From the IMG/VR virus record IMGVR_UViG_3300044621_000754, positions 1 to 37,484 of that record: a DNA stretch of 37,484 nt. One strand, 5' to 3'. The stretch's first letter is position 1. Each line of letters opens with the position of its first letter. This DNA comes from a virus. The translations under genes and the position numbers were made by a program. Of the stretch, positions 30,690 to 37,484 are shown piece by piece. The notes under the pieces were generated by a model, which was not told the DNA's origin, did no database searches, and saw nothing but the letters and a program-made list of their open reading frames with translations.

Positions 30690-30842
30690 ATGCAAGTTAC
30701 AATTAACGAAATTATTGATGCGTTGCGAAATTCAGTAACAGGTAATGACCTTGCCGATCGCGTCGAGAAGTATGGCATTGCAACAAAATGCCCAGAACCG
30801 CTGATTCGCACCCCACAGATGAATGACGAAGTGTATCGATAA
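30690..30842 (+). CDS. 50-aa protein of unknown function
   Basis: The ATG at 30690 follows ATGGAGTAAAC, directly behind a strong promoter. The 50-aa product (MQVTINEIIDALRNSVTGND...) has two short helices. The A of its TAA starts the next ATG (TAATG). Position and ribosome site make it credible despite its size. Confidence 0.65.
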   Translation: MQVTINEIIDALRNSVTGNDLADRVEKYGIATKCPEPLIRTPQMNDEVYR

Positions 30843-31471
30843 TGCCATTTCTCAATCATAACATTCCAACGATTACTTGTCTCATGCGAAACGAGTATCT
30901 GTTTAATCATAAGAAAGGTCATGGTGAGTTTACTCCCTGTGACGTTCATACTGTGGCTTCTATGGAGCGACGAGTTCCATTGTTCGAAGCATTCCTAGAG
31001 AATGGCGTCAACTGGACTCGCCGACCAATCACCGCATTTTGCTGGAAGCCTGATGCACCTATTCGACAGCTCAACGAGCATGTCTACTGGGATTGCTTTA
31101 GTTCCTACGTGGACGTTCAGGTTCGGTCGCGACTCAATCGCCTACGTGCCAAACTTATTACTCCCTCGGGCGAACAGCGCAGTGGGATTTATTTGTTTAC
31201 ACTTGACTGGTCTTTTGAGAACCGAGCGATGCTTGACACGAACTTCTCTGAAACGCCAGAGCACAAATGCGGTCACGTGTTTCAGATGGACGAGGGCAAC
31301 TACTACGTCTATCCTAACAATCGTATCATCTGGCATGATAATGCTTGGGTGTATAATCCTATCACCAAAAATCCTGGCTATGAGATTGATATGAATATCT
31401 ACTCAGTCGAGAATCGCAGTGAGATGATTACTGACAACAGCTACATTACAGAATTCAAGAAAGCAGAATAA
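30842..31471 (+). CDS. Conserved phage protein of unknown function
   Basis: This 209-aa protein is rich in aromatics and Asn (MPFLNHNIPTITCLMRNEYLFNHKKGHGEFTPCDVHTVASM). Clear globular character; no active-site motif recognised. I believe similar proteins occur in other large myophages without a known function. Coupled at both ends (TAATG before, TAATG after at 31471). Confidence 0.7.
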   Translation: MPFLNHNIPTITCLMRNEYLFNHKKGHGEFTPCDVHTVASMERRVPLFEAFLENGVNWTRRPITAFCWKPDAPIRQLNEHVYWDCFSSYVDVQVRSRLNRLRAKLITPSGEQRSGIYLFTLDWSFENRAMLDTNFSETPEHKCGHVFQMDEGNYYVYPNNRIIWHDNAWVYNPITKNPGYEIDMNIYSVENRSEMITDNSYITEFKKAE

Positions 31472-34519: not shown

Positions 34520-35860
34520 ATGCAAAACACATTCCTTTTCGAGAAAGTCCGAGAAGTCTACAACCTTACTGATGGCGGATTGCTAAATGCCGATCCCATC
34601 GGTCAGCGTCCACCTGTAACACAATCTCATGAAAAATCTATCGATATTATTCAATCTTTGATTGACGGATATGGTATCGGTATGATTACACTGCGCGATA
34701 TCAGCAACGACGAAGAGATGCAAAAAATCTATCCTGGTGTTAAATACTTGGTTATCGATGGCGGACATCGTATTCGTGCTATCGGCGGATACATGCGTAA
34801 CAAATTCCGCGTCAACAAGAAGTTCTATCGCGAACTGACTCCCGAGCAAAAGAATATGTTCGAGCAAATACAAATTGTTCTCGACTCTAAGATCTGTTCT
34901 TCTAAACAAGCAATCGAAGTATTCCGCAATCTAAACAAAACAACCGACGTCAACTTTATGGAGATGTTGATGTGTGATGACGAGTCTGTAAATTGCCGCA
35001 CCGTGCGCAGTATGACTCGTCCTTACAAAGAATACAACAATATCCCGTTGGGTTTGTTCGACACAATCTTCTCGAAAGATGGTGAAGAAAAATCAAAGTA
35101 TTTTGATATGGCTCCGAATCATCGCCGTAAGTGGGATGAGTATGCGTTCATCGCGTTGATTAAAGCAGATGGTGGTGGAAATGTGTCGGCTGGCCAGCCA
35201 GCAATTACCGAGATGGCTGAAAGCGCATTGCCTTTAAGCAAAACAACTATTAAGACGGCTGAGCGATTCTTCGAAGATGTCGAGCGTGTGTGCTCATGGC
35301 GCGGAAGTCGCAAAATTAACAACGATATCTTTGCTGCTTTGCAACTGGTATGGTTTGCTTTCTATGAAAAGAACAAGAACTTCAAAGTCGTAGATGTGGA
35401 ATTATTCCATGACTCTTTCTTTGGTGCTTACACTGCGCTTACTGGTTCGAGTCCTAGTCACTATGACAACGAAACGATTGGCTCTGGTCAAGATAAGATG
35501 TTTGTAAAAGAATTCGTTCGCAAGAATGGCAAAAACTTTGCTAACAGCGTTGTTCAGAAGCAATGCGCCGAACTCTTCCTCGATGAAATGGGCGAAGAAT
35601 GTGGTGTTGTTTTCCGCGACGAGAAGCGAAGCCTATCTACTAAAGAGCGCGAGGAATATCTTGCGAAGCAGGGATTCAAATGTGCCATTGACGGTCTAGC
35701 TCTGAAGCTCGAGGATTCTGTTTGGGGTCACGATACTGCTTGGGCAAAGGGTGGAAATCTAATGGATGGTGCTGTTATTCGCCGAACCCATAACACCGAC
35801 ATGGGTAGCTGTACTCTTGACGAATATCGACTGATTCTTAAACTACGCACACAGAAGTAA
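34520..35860 (+). CDS. DUF262-HNH protein (GmrSD-like nuclease family)
   Basis: This 446-aa protein has an N-terminal DUF262/ParB-like domain: GMITLRDIS and VKYLVIDGGHRIRAIGGYM (residues ~51-93) contain the DGGHR variant of the DGQQR motif used for NTP binding. A helical middle part follows. The C-terminus resembles the HNH module of GmrSD proteins: FKCAIDGLALKLEDSVWGHDTAWAKGGNLMDGAVIRRTHNTDMGS (~390-435), but with GHDT in place of the usual DHIxP and HNTDMG for CNxxKG, so the active site may be altered. Bacterial relatives are type IV restriction systems; a phage version may act against host or rival DNA, or be involved in DNA processing. GGAGAAATAA precedes the ATG. Confidence 0.8.
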   Translation: MQNTFLFEKVREVYNLTDGGLLNADPIGQRPPVTQSHEKSIDIIQSLIDGYGIGMITLRDISNDEEMQKIYPGVKYLVIDGGHRIRAIGGYMRNKFRVNKKFYRELTPEQKNMFEQIQIVLDSKICSSKQAIEVFRNLNKTTDVNFMEMLMCDDESVNCRTVRSMTRPYKEYNNIPLGLFDTIFSKDGEEKSKYFDMAPNHRRKWDEYAFIALIKADGGGNVSAGQPAITEMAESALPLSKTTIKTAERFFEDVERVCSWRGSRKINNDIFAALQLVWFAFYEKNKNFKVVDVELFHDSFFGAYTALTGSSPSHYDNETIGSGQDKMFVKEFVRKNGKNFANSVVQKQCAELFLDEMGEECGVVFRDEKRSLSTKEREEYLAKQGFKCAIDGLALKLEDSVWGHDTAWAKGGNLMDGAVIRRTHNTDMGSCTLDEYRLILKLRTQK

Positions 35861-35864
35861 GGAT

Positions 35865-36095
35865 ATGGCGATGATGTATCAGAGTAATAATTCTATGACT
35901 CCGAAGATTATGCATTATGAGTGCACGCACGAATACGCAAATGGCAGTGTAACGCATAGTTATGGTGCTGTTCCTGTGTTTAACGAGCGTCACGGAAACG
36001 AGATGCTACACAAGTGGAATCTCAATCCCACCAAATCTGGTATAGAACCAGGAACTCGCTACATCTACAAATTAGCGTTCTTCGCCGATAACTAA
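35865..36095 (+). CDS. Small hypothetical protein
   Basis: This 76-aa protein starts 4 nt after the DUF262-HNH stop (TAAGGATATG); the ATG at 35874 is an alternative. IMHYECTHEYANGSVTHSYGAVPVFNERHGNEMLHKWN reads as a small beta-rich fold. No known domain. Last protein gene before the RNA cluster. Confidence 0.64.
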   Translation: MAMMYQSNNSMTPKIMHYECTHEYANGSVTHSYGAVPVFNERHGNEMLHKWNLNPTKSGIEPGTRYIYKLAFFADN

Positions 36096-36099
36096 TTAT

Positions 36100-36128
36100 T
36101 TTACTTTTCGCGCTAAATATAGTATAAT
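36100..36128 (+). promoter_or_regulatory. Promoter of the tmRNA/tRNA cluster, TTTACT-17-TATAAT
   Basis: TTTACT 36100-36105, 17 bp, TATAAT 36123-36128; predicted start near 36135, 15 nt before the acceptor piece. CTAAATA (36113-36119) is inside the spacer and could add a late-type element. Confidence 0.87.
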
Positions 36129-36149
36129 AGATTTATTATGGTTGTATGA

Positions 36150-36200
36150 AGGAACGAGAAGGTTTCTTGGACGGCGGTTCAACTCCGCCCATCTCCACCA
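36150..36200 (+). ncRNA. ssrA: tmRNA acceptor piece (3' half of a permuted tmRNA)
   Basis: This piece contains a T arm (GGCGG 36173-36177, loop TTCAACT, CCGCC 36185-36189), the 3' acceptor strand CATCTCC (36190-36196), A and encoded CCA (36198-36200). It is the usual tmRNA 3' end. The strand pairs over 7 bp with GGGGATG at the start of the coding piece that lies downstream, with a G-U at position 3, the alanine identity element. TTTCTT (36163-36168) can pair with AGGGAA (36250-36255) as helix P2. The 5' end is approximate. It is encoded before the coding piece, hence a circularly permuted gene. Confidence 0.9.
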
Positions 36201-36229
36201 AAAATGTTTTCGAGTAGAATGTTTTTGAT
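36201..36229 (+). other. Intervening segment between tmRNA pieces
   Basis: Twenty-nine A/T-rich nt separate the CCA of the acceptor piece from the 5' G of the coding piece. In permuted tmRNA genes this segment is cut out of the precursor by tRNA-processing enzymes. Confidence 0.8.
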
Positions 36230-36601
36230 GGGGATGTCCTGGCTTCGACAGGGAAAGATATCCGACCAGACAACTCGATAGGCGACTGACGTAATCAGCG
36301 CAAACAAAAGTAAAAGCAAATGACTCTTACTACAATCAAGCACTAGCTGCCTGATCCAACTGTTCTTCCGAGTGGGTTTCTCAACGGAAGTGGTCGCACT
36401 CTCTAGTAGAGTGCTATCAAAAGCATATTGACTTAGTGTGCTTCTGATAACATTATTCTAATGTGAGAACTGAAACCAGTTCTCTTATGATGGTTGTCGA
36501 ATCAGCCATCCGCTATCCGCAAAGGTAGCATTCTTGTCGTGATGACAATCTGATAGTATAGGTTCGCCGAGGATTCCCTACAAAACTCGGCACAGTTTTT
36601 T
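36230..36601 (+). ncRNA. ssrA: tmRNA coding piece with tag ANDSYYNQALAA
   Basis: It starts GGGGATGTCCTGGCTTCGAC, as tmRNAs do. The reading frame starts at GCA 36316 and reads ANDSYYNQALAA to TGA at 36352-36354, ending ALAA like bacterial degradation tags. Downstream structure is rich: CTTCCG/CGGAAG (36365-36370 with 36385-36390), GCACTCT/AGAGTGC (36396-36402 with 36408-36414), GAGAACTG/CAGTTCTC (36465-36472 with 36477-36484), and a pseudoknot of TAGG/CCTA (36559, 36577) interleaved with GCCGAG/CTCGGC (36566, 36586). Six T follow at 36596-36601. There is no acceptor end downstream. tmRNA frees stalled ribosomes with SmpB and tags the stalled product. Confidence 0.9.
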
Positions 36602-36676
36602 GGACTTGTAGTTCAGTGGTAGAACAGGTGACTGTTAATCACCATGTCGGAGGTTCAATCCCTCCCAAGTCCGCCA
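36602..36676 (+). tRNA. tRNA-Asn (GTT)
   Basis: Acceptor GGACTTG/CAAGTCC, anticodon loop CTGTTAA with GTT, T loop TTCAATC, CCA encoded. Starts directly after the T tract that ends the tmRNA. Confidence 0.95.
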
Positions 36677-36685
36677 AATAAAATT

Positions 36686-36759
36686 GCGGGATTCGTTTAA
36701 TGGTAGGACTTCAGTTTTCCAAACTGATAGCAACAGTTCGATTCTGTTATCCCGCTCCA
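36686..36759 (+). tRNA. tRNA-Gly (TCC)
   Basis: Acceptor GCGGGAT/ATCCCGC, anticodon loop TTTCCAA with TCC, T loop TTCGATT, discriminator T and encoded CCA. Confidence 0.94.
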
Positions 36760-36765
36760 GTTTTT

Positions 36766-36841
36766 GCTGTCTTAGCTCAGTCGGTAGAGCACCTGCCTTG
36801 TAAGCAGGATGTCGTGAGTTCGATTCCCACAGACAGCACCA
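36766..36841 (+). tRNA. tRNA-Thr (TGT)
   Basis: Acceptor GCTGTCT/AGACAGC, anticodon stem CCTGC/GCAGG with loop CTTGTAA (TGT), T loop TTCGATT, encoded CCA. Confidence 0.96.
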
Positions 36842-36846
36842 AACAT

Positions 36847-36922
36847 GGGTCCATAGCTCATCTGGGAGAGCGCCAGCTTTGCAAGCTGGATGTGGTCGGT
36901 TCGAGTCCGACTGGATCCACCA
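36847..36922 (+). tRNA. tRNA-Ala (TGC)
   Basis: Acceptor GGGTCCA/TGGATCC with the G3-U70 alanine identity pair, anticodon stem CAGC/GCTG with loop TTTGCAA (TGC), encoded CCA. The same G3-U pair is in the tmRNA. Confidence 0.96.
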
Positions 36923-36927
36923 AAAAT

Positions 36928-37009
36928 GCGGTCGTGGTGGAATGGTAGACGCGCTGGTCTTAGAAGCCAGTCTTAATTGGTGAGAGTTCGAGTCTCTCCG
37001 ACCGCACCA
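36928..37009 (+). tRNA. tRNA-Leu (TAG)
   Basis: Acceptor GCGGTCG/CGACCGC, anticodon loop CTTAGAA (TAG), a variable arm (TCTTAATTGGTGA region), T loop TTCGAGT, encoded CCA. Long variable arm fits a class II tRNA. Confidence 0.94.
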
Positions 37010-37013
37010 TATT

Positions 37014-37090
37014 CGGAGTGTAGCACAGCTTGGTAGTGCGCTTGCTTTGGGAGCAAGAGGTCCAAGGTTCGAATCCTTGTACTCCGACCA
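37014..37090 (+). tRNA. tRNA-Pro (TGG)
   Basis: Acceptor CGGAGTG with GTACTCCG side, anticodon stem CTTGC/GCAAG with loop TTTGGGA (TGG), T loop TTCGAAT, encoded CCA. Confidence 0.95.
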
Positions 37091-37110
37091 ATTTAACAAA
37101 GGAGAAGTTT

Positions 37111-37368
37111 ATGTACAGTGGTCCAGTTAATGTAGACGTGTATGAAACAAATTCAGTAGAATCAATTATTGCTACTGGCGAAAAGATTTCTTCTCATTAT
37201 GATAACAACGAAGTTCTAATCTGCGAAGTGTTTCATTTTGATCACACACTAGATGGTTGGAAGTATGCAGTAATTTTCTTTGACGGAAGTTATCCTGTTG
37301 ACTTCTCAGATATTGAATCTGCTGAAAACTACGCTGAGGATGCAGCTTTGTCAGGTTACAGAATGTAA
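37111..37368 (+). CDS. Small protein gene inside the tRNA cluster
   Basis: The ATG at 37111 has AAAGGAG upstream and gives 85 aa; the longer frame from 37030 would run through tRNA-Pro and is rejected. The acidic product (MYSGPVNVDVYETNSVESIIATGEKISSHYDNNEVLICEVFHFDHTLDGWKYAVIFFDG...) looks like a small alpha/beta protein with no known domain. It ends 1 nt before the next tRNA. Confidence 0.7.
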   Translation: MYSGPVNVDVYETNSVESIIATGEKISSHYDNNEVLICEVFHFDHTLDGWKYAVIFFDGSYPVDFSDIESAENYAEDAALSGYRM

Positions 37369-37369
37369 T

Positions 37370-37453
37370 GCGAGCGTGGTGGAATGGTATACACGACAGA
37401 CTTAAAATCTGTTGCCGAATGGCTTGAGAGTTCGAGTCTCTCCGCTCGTACCA
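37370..37453 (+). tRNA. tRNA-Leu (TAA)
   Basis: Acceptor GCGAGCG/CGCTCGT (G-U at the first pair), anticodon stem ACAGA/TCTGT with loop CTTAAAA (TAA), variable arm, T loop TTCGAGT, encoded CCA. Second Leu isoacceptor of the cluster. Confidence 0.94.
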
Positions 37454-37457
37454 ATTT

Positions 37458-37484
37458 GGACAGGTGGGCGAGTGGTTTATGCCA
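37458..37484 (+). tRNA. Truncated tRNA, probably Ser (class II)
   Basis: GGACAGGTGGGCGAGTGGTT matches the 5' acceptor and D arm of Ser-type tRNAs; it is cut by the window edge before the anticodon, so identity is not certain. Confidence 0.7.

Follow-up and report, generated by a model that had tools for sequence, protein, structure and literature searches.

Introduction

Two-piece phage transfer-messenger RNA (tmRNA) is already known as a kind from other phages. A 2022 survey of 18,146 phage genomes recorded a tmRNA in 402 of them, with 133 unique structures, 53 of which were two-piece by ARAGORN (PMC9004378), and 79 bacteriophage tmRNA sequences are contained in PMC11915505, which introduced the Rfam family RF04321. 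Here, we analyzed a tmRNA locus next to a tRNA cluster in the IMG/VR virus record IMGVR_UViG_3300044621_000754, whose whole stretch of 37,484 nucleotides is referred to as the window. The original prediction, made from the letters alone, had described a phage-encoded, circularly permuted two-piece tmRNA adjoining the tRNA genes and had regarded such a gene as unusual in phages. The latter opinion goes too far in view of the 53 of 133 structures mentioned above and the 60 distinct permuted sequences collected here.

The permuted families RF04321 and RF01850 (PMC11915505) and the window copy have in common the order acceptor piece, spacer and coding piece, together with a T arm, CCA, the G3.U70 pair, TTCGAC, a tag and a pseudoknot. 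The window copy differs from the family in that it lies in a phage and is followed directly 3' by a second spacer-type hairpin and another RNA element. The tmRNA of the Methylophilales phage Melnitz and the 53 counted two-piece phage tmRNAs are likewise phage-encoded; the Melnitz form, however, is alpha-like and linked to a glutamine riboswitch (PMC9004378), whereas the window form is beta-type by score and precedes a tRNA cluster. Permuted tmRNAs are also present in the Stenotrophomonas phages DLP6, Yut3, Bhz51, IME-SM1 and BUCTxx99. The first four (L036-L039) gave a beta-type match and lie in tRNA arrays of large phages, as in the window, whereas their tags, ANDDSFAPMAIAA and VAANDDSYTVRIAA, are unlike that of the window. 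In the fetched stretches, the tmRNA was listed in the annotation of Yut3 and Bhz51 and was unlisted in that of DLP6, IME-SM1 and BUCTxx99 (Table 1). The Stenotrophomonas host of these phages has a one-piece tmRNA.

Identity and architecture of the tmRNA

ARAGORN called a permuted tmRNA (tmRNA*) at 36108-36445 on the plus strand, followed by seven tRNA genes. The search with Rfam tmRNA models, which had been proposed as a check, gave matches above cut-off for both RF04321 (tmRNA_permuted; 36140-36354, full-length model 1-213, 133.5 bits against a cut-off of 47, E 3.5e-26) and RF01850 (beta_tmRNA; 36087-36419, model 1-331, 121.8 bits against a cut-off of 84, E 8.7e-37). The three thus concur with the predicted two-piece tmRNA, whose individual parts were also found as described. 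The acceptor end (T arm, CATCTCC, ACCA) precedes the 5' end GGGGATG in DNA order, with a spacer of 29 nt between them. The two ends form an acceptor stem with 7/7 pairs, including the alanine-type G3.U70, and carry A73-CCA. The resume codon GCA lies at 36316, and the tag ANDSYYNQALAA, printed by ARAGORN as VKANDSYYNQALAA, has a protease-type end closed by the stop TGA at 36352-36354. In the pseudoknot, UCC-ACU/AGU-GGG is interleaved with CUUCCG/CGGAAG. An acceptor end 3' of the coding piece was reported by neither ARAGORN nor the Rfam search, in keeping with the prediction, and the one-piece model RF00023, with its acceptor end 3' of the tag, had no match in the window. In the pseudoknot and end hairpin, 57/57 cells were paired in 3/3 sequences (window, L003 and L098), which is weak as covariation because few pairs vary. 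We read 36140-36414 as a functional permuted (two-piece) tmRNA gene of beta type, carried by a phage that is probably T4-like, with a probability of roughly 0.88.

An own promoter for the tmRNA had also been proposed. A candidate site, TTTACT-17-TATAAT, matches 10 of 12 consensus bases, and this part of the claim stands as suggestive only; 35900-37484 contains six promoter-like sites against 2.5 +/- 1.7 in shuffles.

Conservation of the permuted tmRNA in phages

Scanning viral contigs with a pattern of the permuted order yielded 34 loci, and ARAGORN called a permuted tmRNA in 34/34. The ARAGORN tags (n = 34) showed AND in 29 and an AA ending in 30. L003, L024 and L031 are near-identical to the window at the tmRNA; over 36095-36601, L031 equals the window and L024 equals L003. 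The base-paired ends were then assessed in 13 distinct permuted sequences that had been obtained without a pattern fixing these bases (L036-L040, L061, L063, L064, L065, L067, L068, L069 and L098), all of which retained 7/7 acceptor pairs and G3.U70. Among phage loci, a script assembled 60 distinct permuted sequences with G3.U70 in 60/60 and seven acceptor-stem combinations, a count that is partly forced because patterns were used and the script demanded GGG and at least 6 pairs. As side observations, the predicted permuted-tmRNA tags of L011, L018 and L020 are long or unusual (33 residues in L011), and ARAGORN placed a tRNA-Pyl gene with a CTA anticodon near a permuted tmRNA in another viral contig (L026, 11222-11297).

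Relatives of the protein encoded upstream at 34520-35860 were found in 20 phage records, including the window's near-twin L031. Fifteen of these 20, comprising ten distinct sequences, carry a permuted tmRNA above cut-off, and a one-piece tmRNA above the RF00023 cut-off was found in 0/20. Comparison of the window with L003 and L024 revealed 0/215 changes in the tmRNA (36140-36354) and 0/489 in the tRNA stretch (36602-37090), as against 23/231 in the flanking small gene (35865-36095); gene 34520-35860, being out of register, was left out of the comparison with L003. Within 36355-36601, the window and L003 differ by 11 changes, of which 6 are unpaired, 5 are paired with the pairing kept, and 0 break a predicted pair. 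When 11 changes were placed at random, the mean number of broken pairs was 5.7, and only a fraction of 5e-5 of 20,000 trials left every pair unbroken. Judged from these sequence comparisons, the tmRNA is part of a maintained gene. The gene could instead be a decayed or captured host tmRNA gene that is functionless in the phage, for example a remnant of integration at ssrA, as ssrA fragments are known in prophages and the host ssrA can serve as an integration site (PMC9004378). This explanation is very unlikely in view of the intact pieces, tag and pseudoknot, the retention in 15/20 related records with diverged sequence, and the core that stayed unchanged while the flanking gene changed (0/215 versus 23/231).

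The Gp23 capsid family was detected in 6/14 records, indicating that the phage is probably T4-like. The six include DLP6 and Bhz51, which were the two records tested among L036-L039, and a record of 197 kb that has a relative (60%) of the neighbour protein. Gp23 was found neither in the 84-kb near-twin L031 nor in seven other records. The window genes include those for ribonucleotide reductase, primase, ligase and dCMP deaminase. Two pattern scans of bacterial genome contigs for a source or host gave 0 matches, which is uninformative as the patterns were over-specified, and a plasmid scan gave one weak Cupriavidus match.

Proposed function of the tmRNA

An SmpB gene was found neither in the window nor in 14/14 other phage records, with the control detected in 10/14 genomes. 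The parts of the gene would therefore fit trans-translation with host SmpB, which is most likely how this tmRNA works. One transcript would be cut at the spacer, by RNase P at GGGG 36230 and by a 3' nuclease at CCA 36200, and the two pieces would be held together by the acceptor and P2 helices. Host alanyl-tRNA synthetase would charge the RNA via G3.U70, and, in the infected cell, host SmpB would bring it to ribosomes that had stalled on broken mRNA. The tag would then be appended, and host proteases would degrade the product via its ALAA end. In this manner, the phage tmRNA may supplement the host tmRNA or replace a damaged one. A modified tmRNA that works against the host system as a competitor or decoy, instead of in rescue, is improbable, as the full tag with its ALAA end, the resume region and the pseudoknot give no sign of lost tagging.

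Several points weigh against a working tmRNA of this kind. The absence of SmpB is unproven, as the window and several of the searched records are fragments; the 37,484-base IMG/VR record itself is likely one. Five of the 20 relatives, on contigs of 5 to 49 kb, gave no permuted tmRNA match. The covariation count of the pseudoknot comes from 3 sequences, and 146/500 shuffles reach the same score. The cutting, charging and tagging proposed above are carried over from the known family.

Spacer length

The 60 distinct permuted sequences have spacers of between 1 and 86 nt. When spacers of 1 to 10 nt were scanned for, 29 loci were obtained, 22/29 of which ARAGORN calls permuted. Only one base separates CCA and GGGG in five loci (L110, L111, L118, L125 and L126; 2/5 called by ARAGORN), and spacers of 4 or 5 nt occur in many (L040, L065, L068 and others), including 4 nt in the named phage BUCTxx99 (L040). 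When only one base or a few lie between the pieces, one cut by RNase P would almost suffice to generate both ends. No statement on a minimal spacer length was found in the accessible parts of PMC9004378 or PMC11915505.

The second spacer-type hairpin

The original prediction had counted many downstream hairpins as part of the tmRNA. This was correct for the pseudoknot and end hairpin (36355-36414) and incorrect for 36419-36447 and 36465-36591. The stretch 36355-36601 folds far better than its shuffles (z -6.84, 0/200) and is composed of three parts, namely the pseudoknot with the end hairpin, a second spacer-type hairpin, and an unnamed RNA. The view that the whole array 36355-36601 is extra tmRNA structure was rejected, as the copies of 36465-36591 in L131 and L134 have no tmRNA immediately before them. 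The coordinates of all features are summarized in Table 1.

Table 1. Features of the tmRNA locus, its surroundings and related phage loci (window coordinates unless a locus is named; IVS, intervening segment; MFE, minimum free energy)
Feature	Position	Strand	Basis or remark
Promoter-like TTTACT-17-TATAAT upstream of tmRNA	36100-36128	+	Consensus scan, 10 of 12; weak evidence
tmRNA acceptor piece (P2 strand, T arm, CATCTCC-A-CCA)	36140-36200	+	RF04321 and RF01850 alignments, sequence reading
Intervening segment IVS1, 29 nt, hairpin-forming	36201-36229	+	
Coding piece, 5' part (GGGGATG acceptor strand, TTCGAC, resume codon, tag, TGA)	36230-36354	+	ARAGORN, Rfam, sequence reading
H-type pseudoknot of coding piece	36355-36390	+	Paired throughout in window, L003 and L098; most pairs invariant
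End hairpin of coding piece	36396-36414	+	RF01850 alignment; one pair with two-sided change, window versus L003/L098
Second spacer-type (IVS-like) hairpin AAAGCATATTG..GTGTGCTTCTGAT, 3' of coding piece	36419-36447	+	Pattern scan; enlarged form in L098
Small hairpin ACATTA-TTC-TAATGT	36450-36464	+	MFE fold
Unnamed multi-hairpin RNA	36465-36591	+	Recurs in L131 and L134; B, C and D-like hairpins of DLP6 weaker
Element hairpin A	36465-36484		
Element hairpin B	36489-36510		Loop UCGAAU
Element hairpin C	36512-36529		Loop CGCAAA
Element hairpin D	36534-36548		Loop GUGAU
Element hairpin E	36566-36591		
tRNA genes Asn, Gly, Thr, Ala, Leu, Pro	36602-37090	+	ARAGORN, Rfam RF00005
Further tRNA-Leu	37370-37453		ARAGORN, Rfam RF00005
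Unannotated permuted tmRNA gene, DLP6	L036 2976-3319		
Unannotated permuted tmRNA gene, IME-SM1	L039 2730-3104		
Unannotated permuted tmRNA gene, BUCTxx99	L040 2470-2795		

The hairpin pattern AAAGCATATTG...AGTRTGYTTCTGAT occurred in only 5 viral contigs, all of them permuted-tmRNA loci, and a chance hairpin was dropped on this ground. It forms the true spacer in L012 and L029 and stands behind the coding piece in L003, L024 and L031. L098, a relative with 75% ligase identity, has an enlarged hairpin on the same base at the same place. Bhz51 (L038) has a hairpin of similar type, flanked by tRNA-Leu and the tmRNA, so the type is not limited to the tmRNA spacer; the script that found it also lists several other, seemingly unrelated hairpins in the loci. 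We read 36419-36447 as a portable processing hairpin, which probably marks where the coding piece is processed at its 3' side. Alternatively, it may be the relic of a gene duplication.

An unnamed multi-hairpin RNA in front of tRNA genes

The third part, 36465-36591, precedes the tRNA genes as an RNA element of its own. Its 16-base core GGTTGTCGAATCAGCC was found in 10 viral contigs, comprising three of the window lineage, L131, L134 and five others (L132, L133, L135, L136 and L137). In the last five, 0/5 stretches contained a tRNA, and the rest of the element was absent by eye. L131 starts at a contig end, and its copy immediately precedes 12 tRNA genes. The L134 copy follows a TTGACA-17-TATACT site and has a run of tRNA genes on either side. 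Both copies retain the loops of B and C and depart from the window in the outer pairs of B and in the D and E stems. In the best fold of L131, hairpins A, D and E are paired in another way. L098 and L131, which stem from one metagenome, overlap at their ends by 22 bases, indicating that they are probably one phage. RF04321 had no match in records G030 and G031. Each of these records is probably a fragment, and G030 and the tmRNA contig of L098 probably belong together.

A model, R1, was built from four copies and searched over 62 sources (518,512 bases). It recovered its own copies and their twins, a place in DLP6 (L036 2639-2680, 25 bits, E 0.0011), and a chance-level match in L026 (E 1.5). 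The DLP6 place is intergenic in the annotation. It precedes the DLP6 tmRNA by ~330 bases, a small gene separating the two, and is followed further on by a GUGAU-loop hairpin. However, the five contigs without a tRNA (L132, L133, L135, L136 and L137), which seem to contain the 16-base core by chance, scored 20.5 to 23.3 bits, near the 25 bits of DLP6, indicating that it is mainly this core that gives DLP6 its score. Nor was the fold of the DLP6 region clearly stronger than its shuffles (z -1.5, 16/200). DLP6 has a probable copy of the element. A possible second copy of hairpin C (GCTACTGCGATGGTAGC; 9.9 bits, E 0.09) was also observed at DLP6 L036 2553-2569. Over 24 whole records, R1 gave matches at E up to 1 in 9, and those below 0.005 were only the known copies and DLP6; G004, G005 and a second DLP6 place followed at E 0.006 to 0.007, and G015, G006 and Bhz51 gave none.

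The window copy had only chance-level matches in Rfam 15 (E 1.2 or more) and fell into no family, and in the L131, L134 and DLP6 loci the element had no Rfam match at E up to 1. Blastn against phages returned no match for the window array and only E 2 matches for the L131 and L134 copies. In a covariation analysis (A3) of 4 sequences, 45/500 shuffles reached the score of the element. Further candidate copies were rejected. The last viral scan gave 15 contigs, of which L150-L159 have no ARAGORN tRNA, eight seem to be one coding region, and the model had no match in L150-L159 at E up to 0.1; L138 lies within what reads as a coding region.

Two roles were weighed for the element. It may be a cis-acting leader that keeps RNA polymerase going through a long untranslated tRNA operon, like the HK022 put RNA. 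The put RNA is ~70 nt with two stem-loops and counteracts intrinsic as well as Rho-dependent terminators; putL directly follows PL (PMC9378689). The position of the element before tRNA genes in the window, L131 and L134 agrees with a leader, as do the promoter-like sites just upstream in L131 and L134 (TTGACA-17-TATACT in the latter), scanned without a shuffled control. However, the best promoter-like site of the window lies ~340 bases upstream, before the tmRNA, the L134 element does not head all of its tRNA genes, and in the terminator scan hairpin C itself resembles a terminator. The likeness to put is one of proposed role, the element is known from three lineages with a weak fourth, and we regard a leader as rather unlikely.

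Alternatively, the element may be a free stable phage RNA like GOLLD or ROOL that acts in trans and has tRNAs, ribosomes or a host nuclease as its target. The loops of B and C, which persist despite changes in the outer pairs of B and in the D and E stems, are consistent with this, as are the frequent location of GOLLD and ROOL near phage tRNA islands (PMC12286853) and a GOLLD-like match ~1.3 kb upstream of the element in the L134 phage. In contrast, the element is much smaller than GOLLD, and the window copy lacks an Rfam match better than E 1.2. HK022 put, GOLLD and ROOL are also structured phage RNAs, located near a promoter (put) or tRNA islands (GOLLD and ROOL). A free RNA can be held only tentatively. 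The GOLLD-like match in the L134 tRNA region (L140 1-223) scored 74.2 bits, below the cut-off of 150, and is cut at the locus edge.

We consider the chances about even that 36465-36591 belongs to an undescribed structured RNA of large phages that precedes tRNA or tmRNA genes, either as a put-like antitermination leader or as a free RNA, and that it is accompanied by a portable spacer hairpin (AAAGCAT..ATGCTTCTGA) that serves as a shared processing signal on either side of the tmRNA coding piece and also between tRNA genes of phages. Such an RNA would be recognized by its core hairpins, with kept loops UCGAAU and GCAA and often GYGAU, and with outer pairs or stems that change. Elsewhere in the window, a ferredoxin-type gene (phrog_3704) was observed at 30842-31471.

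Implications

The window tmRNA extends a known, little studied group, in which phages bring their own two-piece ribosome-rescue RNA. The comparative set shows to what extent the spacer can be reduced, and the question of tmRNA processing thereby becomes testable. Should the neighbouring hairpin RNA be confirmed, it would add a new phage RNA linked to tRNA genes.
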